IMG/VR virus record: IMGVR_UViG_3300032093_014925
Location: 1-43,432 of that record
Reading direction: 5' to 3' (one strand)
Length of the DNA: 43,432 bases
DNA from: a virus
The notes under the pieces were generated by a model that was not told the origin of the DNA, made no database searches, and saw nothing but the letters and a program-made list of their open reading frames with translations. Made by a program: the position numbers and the translations under genes. How positions within the stretch are numbered: position 1 is the first letter of the stretch; each line of letters starts with the position of its first letter. This document shows, in pieces, positions 1 through 43,432 of the stretch.

Positions 1-69
1 CGAGAGGTACGGGAACTTCCGCCGGCAGAGATCCTTGGCCTTGAAGATCCGCTTGGTGTGCTTGTTCAT
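1..69 (-). CDS. Partial gene downstream of the MoxR ATPase (5' end only)
   Basis: Only the first 23 codons are present; the rest lies beyond the left edge. The peptide begins MNKHTKRIFKAKDLC and is basic. Its ATG overlaps the TGA of the MoxR gene by one base (TGATG), so the two are translationally coupled and very probably co-transcribed. MoxR ATPases are often followed by a partner protein such as a VWA-domain protein, but nothing in these 23 residues identifies one. No function is assigned. Confidence 0.6.
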   Translation of the reverse strand, partial: MNKHTKRIFKAKDLCRRKFPYLS

Positions 70-1175
70 CACGCCACCCCCATCACAGCCGACACCACCT
101 TGCCGTAGCGGGCGGCGAGCTTTTCTGAGGGGCGGTACTTCGGGAACATGGGCTTGAGAGCAGACAGCGAGGGAACGGCCGCATCGGGCAGGTCGTTCTC
201 CGCCAGATGCACCATCACTTCCACGGCCCGGTCGAGTACGGCGGTGTCGACTTCCGACTCCTTCCGCCGCTCGTCGAGGTGCATGACGATCGCACTGGGC
301 AGGGAGATCAGCCGATCCACCTGGGAGTCGGTGACGACCACCTTCTCGGTGCCCGAGAGAATCGCCTCGACGTCGTGCATGGCGATCGCATCGACGCGGG
401 CCATGAGTTCGGCCGACGCACCGGTACCCACAATCCCGGCACCCAACTCCGCCCGGCACTCGTCGAGCAGCCCGACACTCTCGGCGGCGGCGAGGCACTT
501 GGCGAGGTTCCACCAACTCCGGGGAGTGGGAAACGCGAGCGTCCCCTCGTGAACCTTCTCAGTGTTGGCGAGCGTCGGCTTGTTGCGAACGAGGCCGGAG
601 ATCAGCCCGCCCCACTTGGGCAGCAGGAACGAGAAGTCCCCGACCACCGGGAACTCCGCCGGCACCGGGAAGTTGCCGCCGTTGCGGAGTCCCTCGTGCC
701 ACAGACCGGACGGGAAAACCCAGTCGTGGTGGTACAGCCGGTTGCAGATGGAGGGCTCGAGCGGCGAACCGTTGGGTGCCAACTCCGGGGGATTGGCCGC
801 AGCCGAGACGATCGTGGTGGGATGGAAGTGCAGGCTCCCCACCCGCCGCTCGTTGAAGCACGAGAGCAACGGCGGACGCATCTGCGTCTGGGCGCTCGTC
901 AACTCGTCGACGAACAGCCACCGTTTCGCGAGCAGGAGGTCGTGCATCCACTCCATCGGCACCATCCGGCAGAAGCCGGTGGCGGTGTCGTGGTACGGGA
1001 TGCCGCCGATGTCCTCGGGGGCGTGTTGCGACGGGATGAAGACGTGGGCGACGTAGCCGATGTGCGCCGCCACCGCCTCAATGAGCGCGTTCTTGGCGAC
1101 ACCGACGCCACCCCAGGCGATCGACGAGACACCTGCTTGGCAGGCGATGAAGTAGGAAACATTCGGACAAACCAT
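69..1175 (-). CDS. MoxR-type AAA+ ATPase
   Basis: A 368-residue protein starting MVCPNVSYF. An upstream extension of the frame would run through the neighbouring gene, and the ATG at 1175 has the purine-rich block AAGGGG just upstream, so this start is preferred. Near the N-terminus GGVGVAKN matches the MoxR P-loop pattern GxxGxAKS, except that Asn replaces the usual Ser/Thr after Lys. Walker B is LFVDEL, and sensor 1 is AAANP, as in MoxR proteins (compare A-x-x-NP). MoxR ATPases act as chaperone-like remodelers, usually with a partner encoded alongside. Here the downstream partner gene is cut off by the edge. A promoter/leader element (1203-1243) precedes the gene. The family call is fairly secure; the substrate is unknown. 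The Asn in the P-loop may weaken Mg or ATP handling. Confidence 0.82.
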   Translation of the reverse strand: MVCPNVSYFIACQAGVSSIAWGGVGVAKNALIEAVAAHIGYVAHVFIPSQHAPEDIGGIPYHDTATGFCRMVPMEWMHDLLLAKRWLFVDELTSAQTQMRPPLLSCFNERRVGSLHFHPTTIVSAAANPPELAPNGSPLEPSICNRLYHHDWVFPSGLWHEGLRNGGNFPVPAEFPVVGDFSFLLPKWGGLISGLVRNKPTLANTEKVHEGTLAFPTPRSWWNLAKCLAAAESVGLLDECRAELGAGIVGTGASAELMARVDAIAMHDVEAILSGTEKVVVTDSQVDRLISLPSAIVMHLDERRKESEVDTAVLDRAVEVMVHLAENDLPDAAVPSLSALKPMFPKYRPSEKLAARYGKVVSAVMGVA

Positions 1176-1202
1176 GGGAAACCCCTTCGTGAAAATGAAA
1201 CG

Positions 1203-1243
1203 GGGGCCGCACGGCCCCTCGTGAAACCCCTCCCGGCACCCCA
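1203..1243 (-). promoter_or_regulatory. Leader element 1 (GGGGTGCCGGGA plus hairpin)
   Basis: The 12-mer GGGGTGCCGGGA lies at 1242-1231 on the minus strand, five bases past the stop codon of the upstream gene. It is followed by a perfect hairpin GGGGCC-GTGC-GGCCCC (1218-1203) and then the MoxR ATG 28 bases on. It is one of six copies. Whether it works as DNA (promoter) or RNA (structured leader) cannot be decided from sequence. Confidence 0.8.
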
Positions 1244-1246
1244 TCG

Positions 1247-2122
1247 CTAGACGGTCTGTGCCTGCCACAGTTCCATGTGCGCCATGCCGATCATGGCCTG
1301 CTGCCGTTCGAGCGCACCGCGAAGCGCATCCAAGCGCACCTGCAAGAACTCCTCGTAGTATTCGATCTGCCGAGCGTCCTCGACCATCGCCTCGAAGCGG
1401 GACTGCAAGCCGTCGGCACGCGCCTTGCCTCCCCGGCCAGTCAGTTCCTCCCACTCGGCAGACCGCTGCTCCATGCGGGTGATGAGACTCTCCTGCACGT
1501 TGTCGTGGAGCGTGGCGAGGAGTTTGTCGTTGGCGGAGAGATCGACCTGCCAACAGTGGAGACGCGGCCCGACCAACTCCCGGGCCACCGTCTCGTACTG
1601 CTCGATGAACTCACCGGGCATGAAGTAGACGGAGCCGTTGTCCCGCAAGAGAACGCCGTGACACGCCGCGAGCAGACCGTTGACCGCTTTGGTCAGGTCG
1701 CTGGCGGTGAGGTACCGGGTCGACTCCCGGTACACCGCCTCAAGTTGGTTGATCGCATCCGGCCCGACGTACAGGGGGCAGGCGGGAGACTGCTTCAAGA
1801 ACACCGCCCGGCCACACTCGGAGAGGCCGACGGAGAACATGAACTGGTACTCGTTCTCCTGCGTCCCGCGGATCTCCCGGTACACACCGATGCCCGTACT
1901 GCTACGGTCGAGGGTGAAGTATTTGAGGGGCAGACCGGGCAGCGCCAGTCCACCGTCACCGGCCACCGCCTTGGCCGCATCGGTGAGCGCCGCCAGGTGG
2001 TTGACCGCCGGCACGAGCGACGGCTTGCCGACCGAACCGAAGGCACTCTCGGCGTTCTGCCGGAGCACCCGTTGAGAATCCCAGCACACGACGGCGCCGG
2101 ACGAATCGAACTTGCGAATCAT
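1247..2122 (-). CDS. DUF6744-like phage protein
   Basis: A 291-residue protein. The ATG at 2122 (MIRKFDSSG) is chosen over a GTG at 2137 because GGAGG sits seven bases before it. The middle of the protein has the pattern YRESTRYLTASDL, then GLLAACHGVLLRDNGSVYFMPG. I associate this layout (a short helical DxTxAVxxLLxxxxGVxLRxxGxVYFxP core followed by a helical C-terminal third) with DUF6744, a family of unknown function on phages and other mobile elements. Residues from about 200 to the end are rich in E/Q/R/L and probably form a coiled coil. It lies 43 bases after the 83-residue gene, without a leader element of its own, so it is probably co-transcribed with it. The family link is from memory of the pattern, not a search. 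Confidence 0.7.
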   Translation of the reverse strand: MIRKFDSSGAVVCWDSQRVLRQNAESAFGSVGKPSLVPAVNHLAALTDAAKAVAGDGGLALPGLPLKYFTLDRSSTGIGVYREIRGTQENEYQFMFSVGLSECGRAVFLKQSPACPLYVGPDAINQLEAVYRESTRYLTASDLTKAVNGLLAACHGVLLRDNGSVYFMPGEFIEQYETVARELVGPRLHCWQVDLSANDKLLATLHDNVQESLITRMEQRSAEWEELTGRGGKARADGLQSRFEAMVEDARQIEYYEEFLQVRLDALRGALERQQAMIGMAHMELWQAQTV

Positions 2123-2165
2123 GGGGAAAACCTCCACGAGTAAGGGGTACTATACGGGCTTACAC

Positions 2166-2417
2166 TCACTGGAGCGGGCCGTACTTCCGGCCTGCTCCGT
2201 CCAACTGCCCCTCCGTGGCGCGCTCGATCACGAGCCGGAACCGCTCCCGAACCTGCTCGTCGTCGTGGTGTTCGAGGAACGCATCGAGCAGCTCTTGGGC
2301 GAGCAGCCGACCGACCACAACGAGAAACTTCTTGCTCCAGCGGTCGACGGGCTTGCGCCACTCCGACCGCATCTCGTGGGGCGAGAGAGCCTCGTCCCAC
2401 TTGGGGATGTCACGCAT
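2166..2417 (-). CDS. Unknown 83-residue phage protein
   Basis: The protein (MRDIPKWDEALSPHEM...) is helical, charged, and has no recognisable motif, signal peptide or membrane segment. The ATG is preceded by CCGGAG at a normal ribosome-binding distance, with the spacer GTTTTCCC that recurs before several genes of this block. Leader element 2 (2438-2477) precedes it, which supports it as the first gene of a unit that continues into the DUF6744-like gene. No function can be given. Confidence 0.65.
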   Translation of the reverse strand: MRDIPKWDEALSPHEMRSEWRKPVDRWSKKFLVVVGRLLAQELLDAFLEHHDDEQVRERFRLVIERATEGQLDGAGRKYGPLQ

Positions 2418-2437
2418 GGGAAAACTCCGGGGGAACA

Positions 2438-2477
2438 CGGGCCGCCCGGCCCGCATGAACACCCTCCCGGCACCCCA
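2438..2477 (-). promoter_or_regulatory. Leader element 2 (GGGGTGCCGGGA plus hairpin)
   Basis: The 12-mer is at 2476-2465 on the minus strand, five bases after the upstream stop codon. The hairpin CGGGCC-GGGC-GGCCCG spans 2453-2438. The stem differs from copy 1 in its outer pair but is fully paired. Confidence 0.8.
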
Positions 2478-2481
2478 CTGC

Positions 2482-2808
2482 TCACTTCCGGTGGACGCCG
2501 ACCATCCACGTCTCGGGCTTGATGTTCCCGAGCCAGTCGGCGACCGTCGGGATCCGGCCCAAGTCCTCCATGACATGCTGCTCACCGACGAAACGCACCG
2601 GAACCTCCCGGCCCGTACTCGTGGTGATCGAGCGGCCGAAGATCGTCTCGGCCACGAAGATGCCCTCCGAGTGGTGACGCAGCGCCCGGTGGCGGAAGTC
2701 CGCGAGGTGGGCTTTGGAGCCGTCGAACCACTCGTGGATGGCGAGGTAGTCCCTTACCTCGCCACCCCACTTGCGCACCGAACTCTCGGCGTGATGGAGC
2801 GGGTGCAT
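2482..2808 (-). CDS. DUF6915-like protein
   Basis: A 108-residue protein starting MHPLHHAESSVRKWGG. It shows YLAIHEWFDGSKAHLADFRH, HHSEGIF and RFVGEQHVMEDLG, followed by IPTVADWLGNIKPETWM. I recognise this His-rich layout as DUF6915, a small family of unknown function on plasmids and phages. The regularly placed His, Asp and Glu residues could bind a metal, but that is inference. Its ATG overlaps the TGA of the upstream gene by one base, so it is coupled to the DUF6878-like gene. Confidence 0.78.
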   Translation of the reverse strand: MHPLHHAESSVRKWGGEVRDYLAIHEWFDGSKAHLADFRHRALRHHSEGIFVAETIFGRSITTSTGREVPVRFVGEQHVMEDLGRIPTVADWLGNIKPETWMVGVHRK

Positions 2809-3248
2809 CAGACGTCGAACTCCTCGTGAGAACTCTTGGTTTCGATGATGTTCTCCTCGTGGTCGATGTCGACCCGCATGGCGGTGACGTCGAAGGTGAC
2901 GTCGCCCTGCCCACCCTCGTTGATCTCGTACCCGTCGGGCAGGTACTCGTAGAGGAACTCGACCAACTCCTGCCGGAGCGTGTCGTCGATCTCCACGGGC
3001 TTGTCCTCCGGCCCGAGGCACTTGAGGTCGTGGAGGTCGCCGGAATCCCCGTAGCCGGAGTAGCCGCCGACCACCTTCTCGATGCCGAGAGCGTGGAGTT
3101 TGGGGAGCGTCTGCTGCCGGAACTCGGCGGCTTGCTTCTGCTGCTCCAACTCCCGGCGGCGCTCGTAGTCGTCGAACCAACTCGGCCAGTTGAAACTCTC
3201 GACGTTGCCCCGGTCGGGGCAGTCGTCGTAGGACGGCTCATCGTTCAT
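2808..3248 (-). CDS. DUF6878-like protein
   Basis: A 146-residue acidic protein starting MNDEPSYDD. After a helical N-terminal region (about residues 28-50, rich in E/R/Q) it has GIEKVVGGYSGYGDSGDL, then LPDGYEINEGGQGDVTFDV, then VDIDHEENIIET. This G-YGDSGD... EINEGGxGxxxFDV... DHxE arrangement is what I associate with DUF6878, a family of unknown function on mobile elements. The ATG is preceded by AAAGGG. It is the first gene of a two-gene unit with the DUF6915-like gene, and leader element 3 precedes it. Confidence 0.75.
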   Translation of the reverse strand: MNDEPSYDDCPDRGNVESFNWPSWFDDYERRRELEQQKQAAEFRQQTLPKLHALGIEKVVGGYSGYGDSGDLHDLKCLGPEDKPVEIDDTLRQELVEFLYEYLPDGYEINEGGQGDVTFDVTAMRVDIDHEENIIETKSSHEEFDV

Positions 3249-3281
3249 GCAAGAAACCCTTTCGTGAAACGTGGAAGAAAC

Positions 3282-3320
3282 GGGCCGCACGGCCCACACG
3301 AAGACCCTCCCGGCACCCCA
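3282..3320 (-). promoter_or_regulatory. Leader element 3 (GGGGTGCCGGGA plus hairpin)
   Basis: The 12-mer is at 3319-3308 on the minus strand. The hairpin GGGCC-GTGC-GGCCC is at 3295-3282. A conserved ribosome-binding block CACGAAAGGGTTTC follows just before the ATG at 3248. Confidence 0.8.
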
Positions 3321-3334
3321 CCGGGAGAGCCCAA

Positions 3335-3658
3335 CTACCAGCAGTAGCCCTCGATGGTCGCGCGGAGCCTTGCGCTCTTGCCGAGGGGGCAGTTGCGGAT
3401 CACGTCGAGCACCGCGTTCGCGGCCCGACACAACTCCGTCGCCGCCGTGGAGCAATCCATGCTCGACGCATACAACTCCCAGCCCGAACCCGTCGTCGGC
3501 ACCGGCACCGGAACGCCCCGCGCCGCCTTGCGCAGCAGGTCGTAGAAGATCTGCCGCGGCTCAGTGTCGACGGCCCCGTACTGGCGGTACTGACTCTGGA
3601 CGGCCTCGAACTGGCGGATCGCCGCCCGGAACTCCACGACAATCGGATCATCGCTCAT
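3335..3658 (-). CDS. Unknown 107-residue phage protein
   Basis: The protein starts MSDDPIVVEFRAAIRQFEAV. It looks mostly helical, has four Cys (two near the middle, two near the C-terminus) in no known spacing, and carries no signal peptide. AGAAAGGG precedes the ATG. It is a single-gene unit, bounded upstream by a terminator and leader element 4 and downstream by leader element 3. I do not recognise the family. Confidence 0.65.
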   Translation of the reverse strand: MSDDPIVVEFRAAIRQFEAVQSQYRQYGAVDTEPRQIFYDLLRKAARGVPVPVPTTGSGWELYASSMDCSTAATELCRAANAVLDVIRNCPLGKSARLRATIEGYCW

Positions 3659-3689
3659 CGAAGAAACCCTTTCTGTGAGAGAGAGACAC

Positions 3690-3727
3690 GCCGGAACGCC
3701 CGGCACGAAAACCCTCCCGGCACCCCA
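3690..3727 (-). promoter_or_regulatory. Leader element 4 (GGGGTGCCGGGA plus hairpin)
   Basis: The 12-mer is at 3726-3715 on the minus strand and begins only four bases past the T-tract of a terminator, so a new transcript must start at or near it for the next gene to be expressed. The stem is GCCGG/CCGGC (3704-3690), a sequence different from copies 1-3 but perfectly paired. Confidence 0.8.
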
Positions 3728-3730
3728 CCG

Positions 3731-3771
3731 AGAGGAAAAAGAAACCCCGGGGGCAATCCGTTGCCCCGGGG
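3731..3771 (-). terminator. Rho-independent terminator after the clamp/DUF2958 unit
   Basis: On the minus strand CCCCGGGGCAA pairs with TTGCCCCCGGGG (one bulged base, loop CGGA). It is followed directly by TTTCTTTTTCCTCT. It starts ten bases after the stop codon of the 80-residue gene. This is a GC-rich stem plus T-tract, the classical layout. Confidence 0.85.
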
Positions 3772-3781
3772 CTCCTCCCGG

Positions 3782-4024
3782 CTAGATCGGGAGGTCGAGC
3801 ATCAGCAGTTCCCGATGCGCTTCGGGCACTTGGACGCGGAACTTGTCGAGATACTCGAGCAGGTTCGACGCCGAGCCGTAGACCGGGGGGCACGAGCAGA
3901 GGCCGACGATGTGTCGCCAGTTCCCGTTGGGATACACCCGGTCGAGGAAGTAGTAGGACAGCGGCTCGTCGAATCCGTAGACGAACTTGTGTCCCTTGTC
4001 GTTGGTGGCGGTGTGCCGGCTCAC
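3782..4024 (-). CDS. Unknown 80-residue protein coupled to the DUF2958-like gene
   Basis: The GTG start overlaps the TGA of the upstream gene (GTGA), so translation is coupled. The protein (MSRHTATNDKGHKF...) has FVYGFDEPLSYYFLDRVYP and ends in HRELLMLDLPI. The aromatic-rich middle suggests a compact alpha/beta fold. I do not recognise a family. It is the last gene of the clamp unit and is followed directly by a terminator. Confidence 0.65.
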   Translation of the reverse strand: MSRHTATNDKGHKFVYGFDEPLSYYFLDRVYPNGNWRHIVGLCSCPPVYGSASNLLEYLDKFRVQVPEAHRELLMLDLPI

Positions 4025-4314
4025 TTGCAGTCCCCCACCCTACGAGGACTGAAGTAGAGGTCGCGCTCGATGCGCGCCTTGCCGTCGGGGTAGCGGATCG
4101 CCTCCAACTCCGAGAGGAAGAACGAGCCGTACTCCCGCTCATGGCCGACGACGATGCCGAAGAACTCGTTGTCGCCGTCGAATTCGGTGGCGTACCACGT
4201 CCAGTTCGACAACGGGTCGAAGAACTTGACGTACACCGTGGCATCGTCTCCCGACCCCTCCTGTGAAAAGAGGGGCGGGAGCGTCTTCTTGATCTCTTTC
4301 GTGAGCAACTTCAT
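4021..4314 (-). CDS. DUF2958-like protein
   Basis: A 97-residue protein starting MKLLTKEIKKTLPPLFSQE, followed by VYVKFFDPLSNWTWYATEFDG, FFGIVVGHEREYGSFFLSEL and IERDLYF. This is the DUF2958 pattern (KLLTKEIxxxLPPL, VKxFxPxSNWTWYxTE, FFGxVxGxExExGxFxLxEL, ERDLYF) almost end to end. DUF2958 proteins are small, of unknown function, and common on plasmids and phages. The ribosome-binding site AGGAG lies seven bases upstream of the ATG, with spacer ATTTTCCC. It follows the clamp-like gene by 36 bases with no leader element, so the two share a transcript. Confidence 0.85.
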   Translation of the reverse strand: MKLLTKEIKKTLPPLFSQEGSGDDATVYVKFFDPLSNWTWYATEFDGDNEFFGIVVGHEREYGSFFLSELEAIRYPDGKARIERDLYFSPRRVGDCK

Positions 4315-4350
4315 GGGAAAATCTCCTGTGAAAAGGGGTGATGGGATGGG

Positions 4351-4956
4351 TCAGACGGTGGCGGGCTCGGCGATCTCCTCCGCGGGAGACTCGGTGCCGA
4401 ACTCACCGGGAAACGGCGTGACGTCGAGAGACATGGGCATGAGGACTGCCCGGATGACTTCCCCGGTGGGGGCGGTGGCGGCGAAGTAGATGGCCCGCTC
4501 GGCATCGCCGATGTAGACCCGCACCCCTTCGACTCCCGCCGCCTTGAAGACGGCCAGGACGTCGATGAGCAGCTCCGGCTTCACGCCGATCTGCTTGTGC
4601 TCGGCCGTATCGCCGAAGACGTCACGCCACCGGGGGAACTTGCCGTCGATGAGCGGCGCCGTAGCGGCACCCGCACCGCCGACGACCATCGCCTTGCCGT
4701 CGACCACCTCGAACACCGTGTTGCGACCCTTCGCAGCGGCGGCGGTGTACGCCTTGGTGAGCGGCTTGGCCTCGATGATGCAATCCACCGGATCGCACTC
4801 GTCGCCGTAGGAGACGTTGAGCAACTTCCGGCCGTCGGTGACCGTGATGATCGAGACGTTCTCAGCGCTCTCGCACTTCACGCCACCGAGGGAATAGCGA
4901 CTCGATTCGGTGTCAGTGCAGCCGACGATCGCCTTGATGAAACTGGGCAAACGCAT
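4351..4956 (-). CDS. DNA sliding-clamp (beta subunit)-like protein, short form
   Basis: A 201-residue protein starting MRLPSFIKAIVGC. Landmarks match bacterial beta clamps: RYSLGGV (compare RYxLNGV), VTDGRKL (ATDGHRL), IDGKFPRWRDVF (xDGxFPDYxxVxP), a C-terminal VYIGDAERAIYF and RAVLMPM (xxVMPM). A clamp would tether a DNA polymerase or other partner to DNA. Bacterial beta has about 366 residues and three domains. Here I can align domain II and the second half of domain III, so about half the usual length is present. That may be a genuine phage short form, not a truncation, since it has a good start, its own leader element and downstream genes. The first gene of its unit. The homology is convincing by eye but unsearched. 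Confidence 0.72.
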   Translation of the reverse strand: MRLPSFIKAIVGCTDTESSRYSLGGVKCESAENVSIITVTDGRKLLNVSYGDECDPVDCIIEAKPLTKAYTAAAAKGRNTVFEVVDGKAMVVGGAGAATAPLIDGKFPRWRDVFGDTAEHKQIGVKPELLIDVLAVFKAAGVEGVRVYIGDAERAIYFAATAPTGEVIRAVLMPMSLDVTPFPGEFGTESPAEEIAEPATV

Positions 4957-4980
4957 GGAGGAATCTCCGGGAAGGAAGTG

Positions 4981-5029
4981 GCGGAGCGGCACCGTGCCGA
5001 CCCGCCGCAAAACCCATCCCGGCACCCCA
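4981..5029 (-). promoter_or_regulatory. Leader element 5 (GGGGTGCCGGGA plus hairpin)
   Basis: The 12-mer is at 5028-5017 on the minus strand. The downstream hairpin has an inner stem CGGCA/TGCCG and an outer GCGG/CCGC, the most diverged stem of the six but still paired. It lies 73 bases before the clamp-like ATG, at the head of the leftward gene block. Confidence 0.75.
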
Positions 5030-5131
5030 TAGAGAGACTCACACCATCAGCGCACCGCTGTCACAACGCCGACCCAACACTCCGATCACTTCGAGGCTCC
5101 AGGCACCGGAGAGAGACAAACGGAGCGCAGG
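5030..5131. promoter_or_regulatory. Divergent control region between two leader elements
   Basis: About 100 bases lie between back-to-back elements 5 (leftward) and 6 (rightward). I see no convincing sigma-70 -35/-10 pair and no ORF. A short hairpin CTCC-AGGCACC-GGAG occurs near 5099-5113. Regulator binding here is inference. Confidence 0.45.
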
Positions 5132-5171
5132 GGGGTGCCGGGAAGGATGCTTCGGGTCGGCCGTGCGGCCG
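5132..5171 (+). promoter_or_regulatory. Leader element 6 (plus-strand copy)
   Basis: The 12-mer GGGGTGCCGGGA at 5132-5143 is here on the plus strand, in front of a plus-strand gene. Hairpin CGGCC-GTGC-GGCCG spans 5158-5171, and the ATG is 69 bases from the start of the motif. The orientation change with gene direction shows the element belongs to the gene, not to the strand. Confidence 0.8.
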
Positions 5172-5200
5172 GCGAAGTTTTCTTGAACGGAGAGACAGTC

Positions 5201-5662
5201 ATGGCAGGTCAGAAGATGCTCGACATTGCGGCGCGTATCGCGGAGATCGAGCGCAAGGCGCAGGAAGCCGAAGCGCGGGCCGCGGCGGCGGAAGCGCGGG
5301 CAACGGAAGCGGAGAAGCGCGCAGCGGAAGCCGAAGCCGGGAAGCCGAAGCCGAAAGCCGGCTTCGTGGAGTTGAAGCCGAACCCCCGATACGAGTACGC
5401 GAAGGGGGTCGAGATGCTTCCCAACGGGAAGACGGTCGAGATCGTCGTGAACCGCGAAGGGTACGCCGAACTGACGTACAACAAGCGCTTCTGGAAGGAT
5501 GCTCAGGGCCGGCATCATCCGACGCGCGGAATCTCCGGCGATCCCGCGGAGTGCGCGTACCTTCTCGCATGGATGCTCGAAAACCCCGAAGCCGTCACGC
5601 GGTGGGCGGAGTTTGCGACCGCGAAGGGAACCGAAGCGCGGGCCGCGAAGGGGAGCGCGTAG
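5201..5662 (+). CDS. Unknown coiled-coil phage protein
   Basis: A 153-residue protein; the ATG at 5201 (MAGQKMLDI) follows GGAGAG at a suitable distance, whereas an upstream in-frame extension would run through the leader hairpin. Residues 9-48 are an uninterrupted Ala/Glu/Lys/Arg heptad-like stretch, probably a coiled coil. A Lys/Pro hinge follows, then a C-terminal domain (about 54-145) with KPNPRYEYAKGVEMLPNG and WKDAQGRHHPTRGISGDP. No known motif. It is the only rightward gene with the shared leader element and it ends in a strong terminator, so it forms its own unit, probably expressed together with the leftward block. Confidence 0.65.
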   Translation: MAGQKMLDIAARIAEIERKAQEAEARAAAAEARATEAEKRAAEAEAGKPKPKAGFVELKPNPRYEYAKGVEMLPNGKTVEIVVNREGYAELTYNKRFWKDAQGRHHPTRGISGDPAECAYLLAWMLENPEAVTRWAEFATAKGTEARAAKGSA

Positions 5663-7911: not shown

Positions 7912-7960
7912 TGGTGACACAACTTCGCCAATCCCGGGCGAAACGGGGGTTGTGTCACCA
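7912..7960. repeat. Long perfect inverted repeat between cassette and virion operon
   Basis: TGGTGACACAAC (7912-7923) pairs with GTTGTGTCACCA (7949-7960). Nested inside, TTCGCC pairs with GGCGAA. That gives 18 paired bases with one six-base bulge. No T-tract follows, so it is not a standard terminator. It could be a REP-like element, a regulatory hairpin or a remnant of a small mobile element. Confidence 0.75.
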
Positions 7961-33341: not shown

Positions 33342-35744
33342 ATGCCCATCTACAGAATTCTTCTTCGCCGAGGCACGGCCGCTCAGTGGGCGTCAGTCAA
33401 CCCGACGCTCGCGGAAGGCGAACTCGCGATTGAGCAAGACACGCAGAAGCTCAAGGCTGGCAACGGAACCGCGGTGTGGAATGCGCTGCCCTACCTGCCT
33501 CCATCTGCACACCAGTCAACCCATGCGCTTGGCGGCACGGATCCTCTAACGCCATCAGACATCGGCACCCTGTCCGCTGCACAAATTGAGTCGATGCTTG
33601 ACGCTCCTGGCTCCCGCCTTATCTACGTTGATTGCAACCGCACAGACTCCTACGCCGAAGACGGCACCCTCTATCGTCCCTATAAGACCATGCGATCTGC
33701 GCTGGCCTCGGTACCGCCTGCGTCGTCTCGCTCCGAATTCAATGATACGAGCAGGCGCTTCTACTGCTTTTGTGTCGCTCCCGGCTTCTATGACGAAGAG
33801 TCCGGCGGTGCGCTGAACATTCCCTATCGGCCGCATGTGGTATTCGATCTAAGCGGTGGCGCCACGCTTAAAGGCAACTATGTCCTCACGCGCCCCTCGG
33901 GCCTTCTGTCGGGCGCGTTCAACATCGCTGCGGCACTTACCAGCGGCAGCAACACCGTCAGCGTGTCCACGACCGACGCCAACTACGGTCGCCTAAAGGT
34001 TGGCTCTGTATTGGCCGGCACTGGCATTACCGCGGTAGCACCCAACAGCACTACCGTGATTACCGCGATCAATGGAGCCACGCTCACGCTTAGCAACAAT
34101 GCAACGGCTACCAATGCTAGTGCGACTATCTCAGTCGACACCGACGAACTGGGCAACGCCGTCTTCGCCATGATCGGCCCAAACAACCGCTCTGGCTACA
34201 ACAACGCGCGGCACAGCCACGTGGGGATCCTCGGCACTCTCACCATCACCCAGAGCGGTTCGACGACCACTGACGCAAGCGGCTTCACCCAAGTGCATCT
34301 GACGCGATGCGGCGTGCGCGGGGTCATCGAATTCACGGGATCGCGTTCTGACCAGAACCAACTGTTCTGCTGGAGCCATTCCGGCTTCGACACGCTCAAG
34401 GCAACAGGCAATCCGGCCGTCACCTTCTATGCCGCCGATACACAGAACTCGCAGGCTGGCAACGCCCTGGGGAACATCATCGGCAACGTCTTCCTCCAAA
34501 GCATCAACAATTGCTACTGGCACGCATGGGCATCGGTATTCACCACTGCTTCGATGGGCATTTCGCCCGGCGACGGCACCGTAATGCCTCCCTACAACGA
34601 ACTTGCTGCCACCTCGTTCACTCGCACGAGCAACGTAGCAACCGTCACCTTGGCACAGAATCACGGCCAAAGCCGCGACCTGCTCGCCGATGGCTACTGG
34701 CGAGAGCAGTACGTCCTGATCAACGGAGTGTCCGAGAACACCTCGTTCAATACGCCGGCCTTCGGAGCGAAGGTGGTCGCCTTCCCAGCGGCCAATCAGG
34801 TGTCGTACGAAAACACAGGCCCGGACGTTTCCACGCCGGTAACCGCCGCAGCCGCAAAGTGGATTAAAGGCACGTTTTTCGGAAATGCGAACGCGAGTGG
34901 CTTCATACAGGCCGGCCCATTTTTCTTGGCGGCCAATGAGGGCGCCATTCATACGCACCCCGGCTGGCGTACCAACACGCAACCTGGGACGGGCACGGCG
35001 TACACAATTGGCAGGTCGTCGGCAGTGACGTTTCGGTATCCGGCTATCGGCTGGACGGCCAACGCCCTGTATGTCCGCAACCGGCTGCTCCTCCCCGGCA
35101 ATGGCTATCAGTACCGCAACGTGACCGCCACCGGCGTTGGACGCAGTGGTGCAAGCCAGCCTACATGGCCCACCACGATCGGCGGCACGGTAGTGGATGG
35201 CGCTGTGACGTGGCAGTGCGAGCAATTGACTTTCCCGCTGGCATTCAATCTCGGGTTCACCGGCAGCATCACTACAGGAAGCAACCAGGTTGTGGTGGCG
35301 CTCGGCAGTGTGCTGGCCGCTAATTTCCAAGTCGGCCACACCATTACCGGCACTGGCATTCCGGCCAACACAACGATCACTGGTATCAGCAGCAGCACAC
35401 TCACGATCAGCAGCAATGCGACTGCTACCAACGCCGCCGCCACCCTGACGGTGTCGGGAACGCCAGCTTTTATCGGCTACAACGTGCAGCAGACGCTCGA
35501 ACTGCTCCACGACAGCAAGAACATCTACCACAACCAGATTGACAGCGGGGTGGCGGGAGCCACCACCGTGCAGGCCGCCATCAAGACGCTCAAGACGCAG
35601 GTGGATGGCAAACCGTCACTTGCGACCGTCCCAGTATCAGCCACCTCGGCCGGTACAGCGGGCACGATCGCCTACGACGCCAACTTCGTCTACGTCTGCA
35701 CCGCCCCAAACACCTGGGCACGAGCGGCACTTGCGGCATGGTGA
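33342..35744 (+). CDS. Long tail fibre with Mtd_N-like cap and beta-helix
   Basis: An 800-residue fibre or tailspike. The cap (YRILLRRGTAAQWASVNPTL, GELAIEQDTQKLKAGNG) matches that at 29671. Residues about 108-115 (DGTLYRPYKT) start a right-handed beta-helix, as in pectate-lyase-like spikes that often carry depolymerase activity. Two beta modules lie at about 197-267 and 635-705. The end (SATSAGTAGTIAYDANFVYV, then APNTWARAALAAW) is a common fibre tip. No catalytic triad can be placed by eye. Confidence 0.82.
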   Translation: MPIYRILLRRGTAAQWASVNPTLAEGELAIEQDTQKLKAGNGTAVWNALPYLPPSAHQSTHALGGTDPLTPSDIGTLSAAQIESMLDAPGSRLIYVDCNRTDSYAEDGTLYRPYKTMRSALASVPPASSRSEFNDTSRRFYCFCVAPGFYDEESGGALNIPYRPHVVFDLSGGATLKGNYVLTRPSGLLSGAFNIAAALTSGSNTVSVSTTDANYGRLKVGSVLAGTGITAVAPNSTTVITAINGATLTLSNNATATNASATISVDTDELGNAVFAMIGPNNRSGYNNARHSHVGILGTLTITQSGSTTTDASGFTQVHLTRCGVRGVIEFTGSRSDQNQLFCWSHSGFDTLKATGNPAVTFYAADTQNSQAGNALGNIIGNVFLQSINNCYWHAWASVFTTASMGISPGDGTVMPPYNELAATSFTRTSNVATVTLAQNHGQSRDLLADGYWREQYVLINGVSENTSFNTPAFGAKVVAFPAANQVSYENTGPDVSTPVTAAAAKWIKGTFFGNANASGFIQAGPFFLAANEGAIHTHPGWRTNTQPGTGTAYTIGRSSAVTFRYPAIGWTANALYVRNRLLLPGNGYQYRNVTATGVGRSGASQPTWPTTIGGTVVDGAVTWQCEQLTFPLAFNLGFTGSITTGSNQVVVALGSVLAANFQVGHTITGTGIPANTTITGISSSTLTISSNATATNAAATLTVSGTPAFIGYNVQQTLELLHDSKNIYHNQIDSGVAGATTVQAAIKTLKTQVDGKPSLATVPVSATSAGTAGTIAYDANFVYVCTAPNTWARAALAAW
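33933..34143 (+). repeat. GTGI beta module, copy 5
   Basis: Encodes TSGSNTVSVSTTDANYG and LAGTGITAVAPNSTTVITAI, ending NATATNASATISV, in the long fibre. Confidence 0.65.
35247..35457 (+). repeat. GTGI beta module, copy 6
   Basis: Encodes TTGSNQVVVALGSVLAANF and ITGTGIPANTTITGISSSTL, ending NATATNAAATLTV. Closest to copy 5 in the same protein. Confidence 0.65.
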
Positions 35745-37315: not shown

Positions 37316-40300
37316 ATGGTCCTCGAGATCGCAGCCCCCGGTGTGAGCCCGTTCGAGAAGCGTCGCAAGCCGCCCCTCGAGACGGCACCGGTGCCGCCCG
37401 AGGTCAAGCAGTCGATCCTCTCCCAACTTGCCGCACAGTCGGGGCAGGCGCTTGAGTCACTGGGGCTAATTCTCGACACCCCAGGAGCGATTGCCCGGGG
37501 AATCTTGGCCGGCGATCCCGCTTCGGGTTTCACATTCGACTCCCAGAGACGCGTCACCGGCACCGAGCTGCTCGACGCCTACGGGCTGAAACCCGACGAT
37601 GATGCTCTCGGCGGATATGGAGCGGGCCTGGCGGGGTTCGCTACCGAAGTCGTCACCGACCCCCTGTTCCTGTTCCAAGGTGGACTTGGGGCCATGTCCA
37701 CTGCCGCCAAGGCGGCGAAGGCGGCCGACGTCCTGCAATACGCCCCGAAGGCGGCGATGGCGAAGATGGGGCCAGACCTGCCATCTGTGCTGCGCGCCGC
37801 CGACAACACGCTCACGGGCCGGGCCACGCTCCAGAATCTCCAGCAAGCCAGAGTTCCGCTCACTGAGTCCACGCTGGACGTGCGGCCGATCGTGGGCGAC
37901 CGCGTAGCCCGGTTTCGCACAACTCTCCAAGACGTGATCGATGCCGCCCCGCAGAGCCAACGACAGGAAGCGATGCGGCAGGTGCGGGACTACCTGGGCA
38001 GCGACGAGGCCGTGCAGTCCGCGCTCGACCAACGCCTTGGCAACCTATTCGGATTCGGATTTGGCGGGAGTGCGACCACGTTTTCTCCGTTCTCCGATCC
38101 GACCACCGAGAAGATCCTCGATGCGTTCGACTACCTCGGGCAGTCTGCCGCTTGGAACCCGGCCACCAGAACTGCCGCCGCGCTCTTCGATAAACGGCTC
38201 GACGGCAGAACTGATGTCGCCGGCCAGATCGACGCCCTCAAGGCCAACAAGACAATCGACGTCGCGGGCCGTCGTGCAGGCGACATTCTGGCGACCCAGC
38301 ACGGCCAGATGCTTCGTGCCGTGAACCTCAACGACGAGGCCAAGCGACTACTCGGTGCGGACACGATGTTCTCGCGCGAGGGCAACGACCTGGCTCTCCG
38401 GCTCGCCACCGGAAAACCCACCGACACCGACCTGGCGATCCTTGCTGAATCCCCGGAACTGGATGAATGGCTGCAAAACTGGGATGGGTACCGAAAGAGC
38501 GCCATTCTGCGGGCGGAGCTGAAGGGGCTTCGGCTCAACGAGTACCACGACGAATTCGGCAACGAGTTCAATCCGCGGTACGCCCAGGAGTTCGAGTTCG
38601 GTCCAGTGGGCACCGGGGCCGGCCAACTCGATCGCGCCGCAACGATCGAGAACATGTATTCCCGAAACCCCGACCTCGCGCTTCCCGGCGGCGACATCGA
38701 ACTGCGGGAGATCAGCCTGCTCCCGATGGTTCGCGAGCACGCGATGCGAAAGACCGACAGCCCCTTCACCGACGAGGAAGTGGGCGAGGAGATTGCCCGC
38801 TTCATCACGGAGAAGCACGGGAACCCAATGATTACCGATGCCCAGGGGACGGGCATCGCACGCGTGATGCGGAAGCTGAATCCGAACCTGCCCGCCGATA
38901 CCCCGGCGTTTTCGGAGCATCCGATCAACGCCCAGATGCGGTACATGGTGAACACCGAGATCCGGCTGGCGACGGCCAACCATATCTATGACTCGATGGC
39001 CGAGGCCGCCCAGCCTGGGCGATTCAGCCAGCAGCCTGGCGGCATCTACCGTTCTGTGGACGAAGTTCTTGGGAAATACGCCGGCCGGCTTGGGTTCGAG
39101 ACGACGGGCAAGTTCAGCCGCCCCCGCAAGGTGGTCGCCGAGCAGCTCCGCGCCAGGATCGCCGTCCGCAACGGGCTGAACCTCAACGACGTCAAGCTCA
39201 AGAACTACTACATCCCCGAGGAGACAGCCGACCGCCTCGTGAGGATCGCCGACTTCTACAACGTGCCCCAAGCACAGGAAGAAGTAGGCAGCATGTTCAA
39301 CATCTTCACGAGCCTGTTCAAAGGCTTCATCCTCGCCTACCCGTCTCGATTCACTCGCGATGCTTACTCCAACCTCGCGAGCATCTGGCTCGAGACTGGC
39401 GATGCCCCCGGGGCAGTCGCGGGCATGTGGGCCGCGAGCAACATCATGGCCGGCAAGCCCGAGAAGGCGATCGGCTATCTGGCAAAGATCCCCCGCTACG
39501 CGAGATACACGGTCAACGGCGTAACCGACCAGGCCGGGCTGCTCCGCGAATTCGAGCGGGACGTGGGCGGCAACGGCGTGCTGTCGGGCTTGGCAACGAG
39601 TGACCTGCTTACGAGCAACCGTGAGGGGAAGATTTCCCAGTTCATTCCCGGTTCAGTCCCCGTCTCCATTGGCGAAGGACTCCGCGAGCTACTCCCCACG
39701 AGCGAGCGGAATCCCGTGCAGATGCTTCAAGATTTTGGAGCGATCCGCAACGTCACCAACACGTTCGAGACTCGTAATCCGATTCTCAACGCCGGCCAGA
39801 AGGTCGGCGACGCCGTCGACTCGATGGCTCGGCTTGGTGGCTACCTCGCGCTTCTGCGAAAGGGCATTGGGCCGCAGCAGGCCGCACAGCGAATGAAGGC
39901 GGCGCTCGTGGACTACGCGAGCCTAACGCCCTTTGAGCGCCACTACATGAAGAACATTTTCATGTGGTGGAGTTACCAGAGCCGCGTCGGCAAGTACGCC
40001 GCCGAAAGCCTCATCAACAACCCCGGTGGCCGGTACGCGCAGATGGTGCGGGCCGTAAACAACCTCCAACGCCCCGGTGAGGAAGGCTACATCCCCACGA
40101 GCCTCCGTCAGCAGGTGGCGGTGCGTCTCCCAGACTATCTCCAGTTCAACCCGGGTACTACGACCTATCTCAAGAACATCGACCTCCCCGGCTTGGACAC
40201 GATCAACATCCTGCAGCCGGCACCCGTGGGGCAGTATTTCCCGGTCAACGTGCAGGGCACGATCCAAGAGCTGCTCAACCAGTCGAACCCGGTGCTCAAG

Positions 40301-40795
40301 TCGCTCGGGGAACTGGCGTTCAACACCGACCTCTACTCGAAACGACCGCTCCAAGAGGCCCGAACGAGCGTCGACAAGATCTACGCCGCGGGCACCGGGA
40401 ACCCGCAGGACCGGGCGGACCCCGTTGTGAAAGCGATCCTCCAGAACACGCCAGGGCTCGGCCGGCCCATCTCGCTCCTGGGCACGGTCTTCGATCAGCA
40501 GGTCGAGAACCCCTACTACCGTGCGGCCAAGATCCTCGCCAACGAGTTGTCGGGCTTCAAGCTCCAGGATGTCGACCCCGAATACGAACTGCTCGACGCC
40601 CGCAACAAGATCAGCGAATTCTTGAAGCGGTACCAGAACACGTTCACCCAGCGGTACATCCCTGAGGAATTGCTGCCACTCATTCCCCCGCAGGCCCAAC
40701 AGTTCAACGCTGTCGACAAGGAACTCCAGCAGCAACTCACCGACTTCTACAAGCGGAAGCGGGCCGCACGGGAGTTTGAGGGGGCCGCCCAATGA
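37316..40795 (+). CDS. Large ejection/internal virion protein, polyvalent-protein-like C-terminus
   Basis: An 1159-residue protein. The N-terminal 350 residues have Gly/Ala-rich hydrophobic segments (GGYGAGLAGFATEVVTDPLF). Residues about 675-720 contain FNIFTSLFKGFILAYPSRFT, then RDAYSNLASIWLETGD. Near 865-895 lies ALVDYASLTPFERHYMKNIF followed by MWWSYQSRV, a motif I know from large phage and mobile-element virion proteins (LPD38-like polyvalent-protein domain). Such proteins are carried in the virion and enter the host with DNA. No transglycosylase or polymerase motif is seen. The stop overlaps the next ATG (ATGA). Confidence 0.7.
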   Translation: MVLEIAAPGVSPFEKRRKPPLETAPVPPEVKQSILSQLAAQSGQALESLGLILDTPGAIARGILAGDPASGFTFDSQRRVTGTELLDAYGLKPDDDALGGYGAGLAGFATEVVTDPLFLFQGGLGAMSTAAKAAKAADVLQYAPKAAMAKMGPDLPSVLRAADNTLTGRATLQNLQQARVPLTESTLDVRPIVGDRVARFRTTLQDVIDAAPQSQRQEAMRQVRDYLGSDEAVQSALDQRLGNLFGFGFGGSATTFSPFSDPTTEKILDAFDYLGQSAAWNPATRTAAALFDKRLDGRTDVAGQIDALKANKTIDVAGRRAGDILATQHGQMLRAVNLNDEAKRLLGADTMFSREGNDLALRLATGKPTDTDLAILAESPELDEWLQNWDGYRKSAILRAELKGLRLNEYHDEFGNEFNPRYAQEFEFGPVGTGAGQLDRAATIENMYSRNPDLALPGGDIELREISLLPMVREHAMRKTDSPFTDEEVGEEIARFITEKHGNPMITDAQGTGIARVMRKLNPNLPADTPAFSEHPINAQMRYMVNTEIRLATANHIYDSMAEAAQPGRFSQQPGGIYRSVDEVLGKYAGRLGFETTGKFSRPRKVVAEQLRARIAVRNGLNLNDVKLKNYYIPEETADRLVRIADFYNVPQAQEEVGSMFNIFTSLFKGFILAYPSRFTRDAYSNLASIWLETGDAPGAVAGMWAASNIMAGKPEKAIGYLAKIPRYARYTVNGVTDQAGLLREFERDVGGNGVLSGLATSDLLTSNREGKISQFIPGSVPVSIGEGLRELLPTSERNPVQMLQDFGAIRNVTNTFETRNPILNAGQKVGDAVDSMARLGGYLALLRKGIGPQQAAQRMKAALVDYASLTPFERHYMKNIFMWWSYQSRVGKYAAESLINNPGGRYAQMVRAVNNLQRPGEEGYIPTSLRQQVAVRLPDYLQFNPGTTTYLKNIDLPGLDTINILQPAPVGQYFPVNVQGTIQELLNQSNPVLKSLGELAFNTDLYSKRPLQEARTSVDKIYAAGTGNPQDRADPVVKAILQNTPGLGRPISLLGTVFDQQVENPYYRAAKILANELSGFKLQDVDPEYELLDARNKISEFLKRYQNTFTQRYIPEELLPLIPPQAQQFNAVDKELQQQLTDFYKRKRAAREFEGAAQ

Positions 40796-40894: not shown

Positions 40895-43432
<2,538 letters not shown>

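Follow-up and report, generated by a model that had tools for sequence, protein, structure and literature searches.

A repeated gene-facing leader cassette with a lineage-specific motif and a covarying hairpin in a group of phages

The nearest known kinds of element to the one considered here, a gene-facing leader cassette repeated in the IMG/VR virus record IMGVR_UViG_3300032093_014925 (43,432 bases; this whole stretch is called the window below), are the start-associated sequences (SAS) and extended SAS (ESAS) of Cluster K mycobacteriophages and the stoperators of Cluster A. SAS, as described, number 11-19 copies and stand before genes of the genome's non-structural half. About half of them adjoin an inverted repeat, which has a different consensus in different subclusters, and ESAS are said to hold a putative promoter (PMC3203893, PMC11373665). 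Stoperators are described as lying predominantly in one orientation, with a consensus that differs between phages (PMC6550527), and as blocking elongation at sites distributed across the genome (PMC9283540). The present cassette, in which a motif is followed by a T-rich gap, a hairpin and a start codon, in that order, resembles these accounts of SAS and ESAS in being a short asymmetric repeat before genes that is restricted to the non-structural half (in the window and in two related records, G401 and G412). However, SAS lie 3-9 bp from the start codon and the motif here 53-112 nucleotides (nt) from it; the SAS inverted repeat is upstream of the SAS, whereas the hairpin here stands between motif and gene, with a folding signal downstream of the motif only; and Pope et al. 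considered an mRNA hairpin at SAS to be poorly supported, whereas here the pairing covaries and the stem sequence is free. With Cluster A stoperators, as the cited sources describe them, the cassette shares asymmetry, one orientation to transcription (6/6 copies in the window; 65 copies in seven records) and dependence on lineage, but it occupies one arm or segment rather than the whole genome, and its fixed downstream hairpin is absent from those descriptions. No account of such an element was found by title or abstract among the literature matches listed, which left most subscription journals and bioRxiv uncovered, and the matches listed held nothing on gene control in planctomycete phages. 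Rfam gave nothing above the curated cut-off in the window and only two tRNAs in seven related loci, which agrees with the original prediction, made from the letters of the window, that no named element has this sequence.

The motif of the window is the 12-mer GGGGTGCCGGGA, which occurs in six exact copies against 0.05 expected, a count reached in 0 of 100 shuffles. It is the sole six-copy 12-mer among window words with at least three different letters, and the 12-mers with four or five copies are shifts of it. The copies have their 5' ends at 1242-, 2476-, 3319-, 3726-, 5028- and 5132+, and the arrangement is the predicted one, with five on the minus strand and one on the plus strand, all six directed towards a gene. 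All six precede an ATG, at 59-72 bases from the motif start rather than the 60-73 that had been claimed, and the six stems named in the prediction are all present, 10-17 bases behind the motif end by a hand count on the sequence, a narrower range than the 8-25 given for them. The copies are confined to 1.2-5.2 kb, where an element precedes six of the ten genes of an arm that extends from 69 to 5662. Every intergenic gap of at least 64 bases in this arm contains the 12-mer (1176-1246, 2418-2481, 3249-3334, 3659-3781 and 4957-5200, the last with two copies), and it is found neither in the two shorter gaps of the arm (2123-2165 and 4315-4350) nor in the 547-base gap that follows position 5662 on the side of the structural genes. 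A GTG inside the motif and in frame with the gene, considered as an upstream start, was rejected, being present at two of the six copies.

In related phages the layout is kept and the motif differs, being invariant or nearly so within a genome and changed between lineages, which could not be seen from the letters of the window. Six further motif groups each carry a motif of their own upstream of genes of this arm, and there too a T-rich gap and a hairpin come after it. At 61% identity of the arm's AAA protein, G001 (locus L127) carries GGGG[TC]GTG[GT]AGAG in seven copies in the pieces examined, the narrower GGGGTGTGKAGAG being found six times record-wide and its reversed control not at all. 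At 44%, G002 (locus L187) has GGGGNNGTGCGGTG five times record-wide (control none), and at 42%, G395 (locus L207) has G[TC]GGGGGCGAGGG six times, including one variant, in the 21 kb examined. GGGGGTGGAAGGG occurs five times in G401, and GCCCCGGCGAG[TGA]G is common to G409 (five copies in 18 kb examined) and G412 (six); the exact copies in G401 and G412 fall in one piece each, the other three pieces having none. A big clade of 23 loci has the motif CNGCGGAGTC, with 164 copies in 20 of the loci and 128 distinct leaders, 116 of which have an ATG open reading frame (ORF) called downstream. In seven whole records of this clade, GCTGCGGAGTC was found 65 times, against 2 for its reversed control, on a single strand within each record, and 64 of the 65 copies are gathered in one compact segment per record (the outlier is G428:25804). 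Candidate motifs with three to six usable copies each were seen in four more loci (L322, L329, L353 and L360). Among 46 elements from eight records (the window, L188, G001, G002, G395, G401, G409 and G412), an ATG ORF of at least 60 amino acids (aa) begins 40-115 nt downstream in 45, compared with 33% of random positions, and the range of 53-112 nt from motif start to ATG holds for 45, the remaining one having no called ATG. Copies are also present at divergent gene pairs, in the window (5028-/5132+) and in L127, L187, L207, L306, L307 and L308; occurrence at divergent as well as co-directional junctions indicates that the motif serves the downstream gene. As a separate observation, CCCCGAAGGGG or a similar inverted repeat lies directly before the motif or overlaps it in three lineages.

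The extent of the family was gauged by several searches. Of the 48 AAA loci, 36 were screened de novo for repeated words; judged by eye, the outcome was convincing for much of the big clade, L330, L322, L329, L353 and L360, and unconvincing for L320, L324, L327, L328, L337, L340, L357, L359, L361, L362 and L365, several of which have little sequence upstream. The exact 12-mer was in none of the 59 loci of a DUF6915 search (L128-L186), a search with the clamp-like protein of the arm found only the near-identical contig L027, and the AAA region of the N4-like phage G7C has no repeated 12-mer with at least three copies. Two further candidates were discarded: an IMG/VR scan with 14 specified bases, with 80 stretches listed among at least 119, in which only L027 had two matches (this contig, 3300005527_003955, is near-identical to the window) and the rest look like chance; and a second 12-mer in L022, whose two copies face each other in apparent coding sequence.

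A lack of additional copies ahead of homologous genes had been named beforehand as a refutation of the prediction, but such copies do exist in related phages, for example before five orthologous genes of the close relative L188. The AAA protein of L188 is 95% identical to that of the window, and its six exact 12-mers comprise these five and one beyond the window's end. Between the five orthologous leader pairs, 5 of 137 paired positions have changed compared with 10 of 87 unpaired ones (Fisher p 0.03), a modest sign that the stems are kept. L188 is without one window gene (ORF 3335-3658, copy 4) and one leader. When L188 7700-8010 is compared with window 3309-3726, the flank upstream of the remaining L188 motif matches copy 4 better than copy 3 (127/155 vs 87/164), and the downstream flank matches copy 3 better than copy 4 (142/151 vs 97/159). 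Thus, gene and leader came in or dropped out together and the breakpoint falls at the element, which is one case of single-gene cassette exchange.

The original prediction had taken compensatory change among the six window stems as evidence for selection on structure. That comparison is insufficient: the stems come from different, non-orthologous leaders and are not in themselves evidence of covariation. Within the window the leaders fold only slightly better than shuffles (mean z -0.75 over 60 nt with 1/6 at p<0.05; mean z -1.50 over 45 nt), and the hairpins there do not convince one by one. Selection on pairing is instead supported by relatives. In 41 non-redundant leaders of the eight records (46 less five of the six L188 copies, orthologues of window copies, which were kept for window-leader, by-lineage folding and ORF and stop-distance counts), the 45 nt after the motif have a mean z of -2.03 compared with -0.23 for 200 random 45-mers (Mann-Whitney p 1.5e-11), and the 45 nt before it a mean z of -0.45 (p 0.12 against random); with the five near-duplicates included, the values are -2.05 after, -0.41 before and -0.33 for random stretches. 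Lineage means range from -1.47 (G412) to -3.51 (G002), and the big clade, where merging identical leaders reduced 164 to 128, has a mean of -2.23, with 91 leaders below -1. The T fraction is 0.39-0.49 at +3 to +7, and +11 is G or C in 41/41 leaders; a similar step from T to purine lies at +5 to +9 in the 128 big-clade leaders.

Covariation was assessed in the AAA leaders of 17 of the 23 big-clade loci, leaving out L337 (which starts inside the leader), L343, L348 and L351 (repeat rows), L344 (no element before the AAA gene) and L353 (another motif); L331 and L341 were retained despite their poor alignment, and related rows inflate the cell counts. In this alignment 92.4% of cells are paired and 7 of 14 pairs have changed on both sides. 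Double-changed cells number 25, where shuffles give 8.8 (0/500) and sliding the pairing yields no more than 9; RNAalifold gives nearly the same helix, with double changes in 6 of 13 pairs. In the big clade the sense strand is also more stable than the antisense strand beyond composition, by 1.36 kcal/mol (p 5e-7, 128 leaders), so that the structure there favours the gene-facing RNA. Apical A-NNN-T triloops occur in 51 of these 128 leaders against 2.4 in shuffles, an excess of about 20-fold to which shared ancestry may contribute, and in 6 of the 41 leaders of the eight-record set against 0.25. A heptamer, CA-NNN-TG, was seen at the hairpin tip in L335, L352, L331 and other big-clade leaders, with NNN mostly CGT, TGG, TCG or CTG; it could be a bound loop or a stem-nucleation mark. 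Two other structures were rejected. Pairing of the motif as the 3' arm of an upstream hairpin is weak in general (mean z -0.35 in 41 leaders and -0.64 in 126), although inspection shows it in window copies 3 and 4 and in several copies of L187 and L207; for a G-quadruplex, the G001 and G002 motifs are by inspection without G-runs.

We tentatively prefer, with more doubt than assurance, an explanation in which the cassette is a promoter-type tag together with a 5' stem-loop. Each copy would be a self-contained leader providing a single gene with an mRNA 5' end of its own. A motif that is invariant within a genome and changed between genomes looks like a site under a co-evolving reader, and this reader would be a lineage-specific, probably phage-specified protein that acts at transcription initiation. 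The motif would most likely be a single-element site, and transcripts would begin immediately downstream of it, within the T-rich gap. The promoters of the phiEco32 sigma factor gp36 offer a likeness in the published description, having a single conserved element that differs between relatives and starts 6-8 bp downstream of it (PMC8948821). Starts at such a distance would fall in or near the T-rich gap and bring the hairpin close to the mRNA 5' end, where it may protect the mRNA or expose the ribosome site that follows; in T4, the gene 32 mRNA is said to be stabilised by a 5' hairpin (PMC8948821). No conserved pair of -35 and -10 hexamers was found upstream of the motifs, only scattered columns and some positions within about 13 bases of the motif being conserved, and a stop codon is often close, so that the requirements probably lie within motif, gap and hairpin.

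Several results weigh against this explanation. The motifs are GC-rich and have no conserved -10-like box near them. T7-type RNA polymerase (PF00940) was found in 0 of 11 records and N4-type RNA polymerase (phrog_414) in 0 of 16, records that are possibly incomplete, the T7 and G7C controls being positive, and no sigma family was matched among 45 of the 66 called ORFs of G412 and 46 of the 80 of G401. Sigma factors of the phiEco32 type are reported to diverge strongly, with 15% identity between two of them (PMC8948821). A sigma-70-like scan of 6.2 kb gave a single match, which lies away from the elements, where shuffles gave 0.6. Predicted hairpin starts scatter, with lineage medians of +1 to +11, so the register is loose, and the 41 leaders of the window and its nearer relatives show no strand bias (excess 0.05 kcal/mol, p 0.57). 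Some genes of the arm also lack the element: 4 of 10 in the window (their starts overlap or the gap is at most 43 bases), the AAA gene of L344, and that of G401, which has a hairpin with a T-run and no motif. Of the predicted phage promoter joined to a structured leader, the gene-facing leader and the selection on its hairpin are supported; for its promoter part, neither a conserved -35/-10 pair nor, in the records searched, a T7- or N4-type polymerase was found.

Ranking not far behind the promoter reading, though in itself rather unlikely, is RNA processing or stabilisation, in which an endonuclease of host or phage would cleave a long transcript at the motif, and the new 5' end of each gene's mRNA would be protected by the hairpin. 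The motif often starts right after an upstream stop codon, within 0-30 nt in 23 of 46 elements compared with 16% of random positions, so that an upstream promoter would have little non-coding sequence to occupy, and the sense-strand bias of the big clade points the same way. T4 offers a precedent: RNase E is described as cleaving gene 32 mRNA 71 nt ahead of its start, and RegB as cutting intergenic GGAG/U (PMC3014915). Several motifs contain GGAG or a similar sequence by inspection, whereas that of G002 has no GGAG-like core; moreover, the T4 sites, as described there, are not a repeated cassette of invariant motif and hairpin, copies are found at divergent gene pairs too, and the motif, which depends on lineage, is longer than would suit an RNase site. 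A nut site consists of a linear box, a short spacer and a stem-loop, and the resemblance of the present layout to it suggests an attenuator or antitermination site, at which the hairpin would stop transcription unless a motif-bound factor permits passage. T-runs do follow some hairpins (e.g., L187 7340 and L207 8334), but at least five T in the 8 nt after the hairpin were counted in only 1/6 leaders of the window, 0/1 of L188, 1/7 of G001, 1/5 of G002, 2/6 of G395, 0/5 of G401, 0/5 of G409, 0/6 of G412 and 25/128 of the big clade (43/128 with at least four T). Such runs being a minority in every lineage speaks against a general terminator, and since the hairpin sequence is not conserved within a genome either, this explanation appears improbable.

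A stoperator-like roadblock, formed by a lineage-specific immunity repressor on an asymmetric site co-oriented with transcription, is likewise improbable. It would account for sites that are asymmetric, co-oriented, near-invariant within a genome and dependent on lineage, and G401 and G412 may be temperate, but it leaves the covarying hairpin at short distance unexplained, the sites are almost only in one segment and just before genes, and no repressor was identified. The triloop hairpins with variable stems recall the early-gene promoters of the N4 virion RNA polymerase, which in the published account have a hairpin with a 3-nt loop and tolerate non-conserved stem bases if the hairpin is kept (PMC4496689), and the AAA protein of the big-clade locus L335 is distantly related to gp24 of G7C. 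An extruded DNA hairpin read by such a polymerase is nevertheless very improbable here: a separate conserved motif lies upstream of the hairpin, the strand bias of the big clade argues for RNA, the polymerase family was absent from the records searched, and a 1159-aa protein of the window aligned to the G7C virion RNA polymerase core with an hhalign probability of 0.3%, its AlphaFold2 model (predicted local distance difference test score 42.7) being too poor for a judgement of fold. Least probable of all is that functionless repeats and hairpins coincide in GC-rich DNA. The weak hairpin statistics of the window taken singly would suit this, but independent lineages contradict it, and copy excess, covariation, big-clade copies, triloops, ORF placement and the folding of the 41 leaders all speak against it.

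Table 1. Positions of the motif copies, hairpins and associated features (window coordinates unless a locus is named).
Feature	Position	Strand	Remarks
Motif copy 1, before AAA+ ATPase-like gene 69-1175	1231..1242	-	exact 12-mer; ATG at 67 nt
Hairpin copy 1, GGGGCC/GGCCCC	1203..1218	-	
Motif copy 2, before ORF 2166-2417	2465..2476	-	exact 12-mer; ATG at 59 nt
Hairpin copy 2, CGGGCC/GGCCCG	2438..2453	-	
Motif copy 3, before ORF 2808-3248 (DUF6878)	3308..3319	-	exact 12-mer; ATG at 71 nt
Hairpin copy 3, GGGCC/GGCCC	3282..3295	-	
Motif copy 4, before ORF 3335-3658	3715..3726	-	exact 12-mer
Hairpin copy 4, GCCGG/CCGGC	3690..3704	-	
Motif copy 5, before ORF 4351-4956 (sliding-clamp-like, weak assignment)	5017..5028	-	exact 12-mer; ATG at 72 nt
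Hairpin copy 5, CGGCA/TGCCG	4987..4999	-	folding z -2.08
Motif copy 6, before ORF 5201-5662, divergent from copy 5	5132..5143	+	exact 12-mer; ATG at 69 nt
Hairpin copy 6, CGGCC/GGCCG	5158..5171	+	
Terminator-like hairpin and T-run, just upstream of copy 4	3736..3771	-	read off sequence
CCCCGAAGGGG-type inverted repeat sites	L187 5657, 7333, 8900; L207 7055, 8324, 9895; L329 several		
AAA+ ATPase-like protein, syntenic anchor of the arm	69..1175	-	phrog_1297 'ATPase' E 2e-28; Pfam AAA matches under cut-off
Protein with weak DNA polymerase III beta-clamp match	4351..4956	-	Pfam PF02767 25.2 bits, cut-off 27

The terminator-like hairpin at 3736-3771 (Table 1) was not listed by the hairpin scan, its loop exceeding the scan's loop length. 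The arm encodes AAA+ ATPase-like, DUF6915, DUF6878 and DUF2958 products as well as the protein with the weak clamp match, which among PHROGs matches the processivity factor phrog_947 (E 3e-9) and best of all phrog_3007 (E 7e-10), labelled RusA-like resolvase. Rightwards of the arm the ORFs are mostly on the plus strand, with portal, head, tail-fibre and Mtd_N matches. The Mtd_N domain, of a kind seen in diversity-generating retroelement targets, is at the N-terminus of an 800-aa tail protein (33342-35744), and one ORF at 40895-43432 combines T5orf172 nuclease-type and ResIII helicase domains. The 1159-aa protein (37316-40795) is kept in three relatives at 39-60% identity; it gave no Pfam, PHROG or significant PDB match, the PDB profile search reaching only E 0.19. 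In L188, an inverted-repeat block around CGAAGTTGTG has six copies in 0.35 kb (5070-5410), and the window has one copy, at 7927. tRNA genes lie near the arm in two relatives (L187 2984-3055 and L207 4338-4409).

Portal proteins of the window, G001 and G002 share 80% and 69% identity, and a search of IMG/VR with the portal alignment gave 99 relatives, of which 80 were kept; against phage records it had a single match, at 23% identity over 35% of the query. The AAA gene is present in 5 of the 25 portal-bearing records searched. G401 and G412 have ORFs matching SU10-like adaptor or portal, ERF, helicase and serine recombinase families, and G401 also an integrase family; the recombinase and integrase families suggest that these two phages may be temperate. 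Distant relatives of the L335 AAA protein occur in 141 phage records (the rows shown have 23-27% identity), among them gp24 of G7C (Schitoviridae) and proteins of several other phages that we take to be N4-like. The sole host evidence is L188, a contig of a Planctomycetaceae metagenome-assembled genome, and some phages of the group probably infect planctomycetes. Among 392 sampled genomes of the same phylum, 10 had an AAA match, which was strong in that metagenome-assembled genome only.

Taken as a whole, the cassette may, on a judgement that falls just short of even, represent a new class of gene-expression module, with one architecture (tag, U-rich gap, triloop-prone RNA stem-loop and start codon) shared by deeply diverged phages, a tag rewritten in each lineage, an implied co-evolving reader and a role as an exchange point for single genes. 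Since the layout is conserved and the tag is lineage-specific, with seven tested and four candidate versions at hand, the tag provides a direct handle on the reader, which should co-vary with it. The cassette could also supply orthogonal leader parts, and it could serve as a marker with which to bound the set of early or host-takeover genes in these phages.

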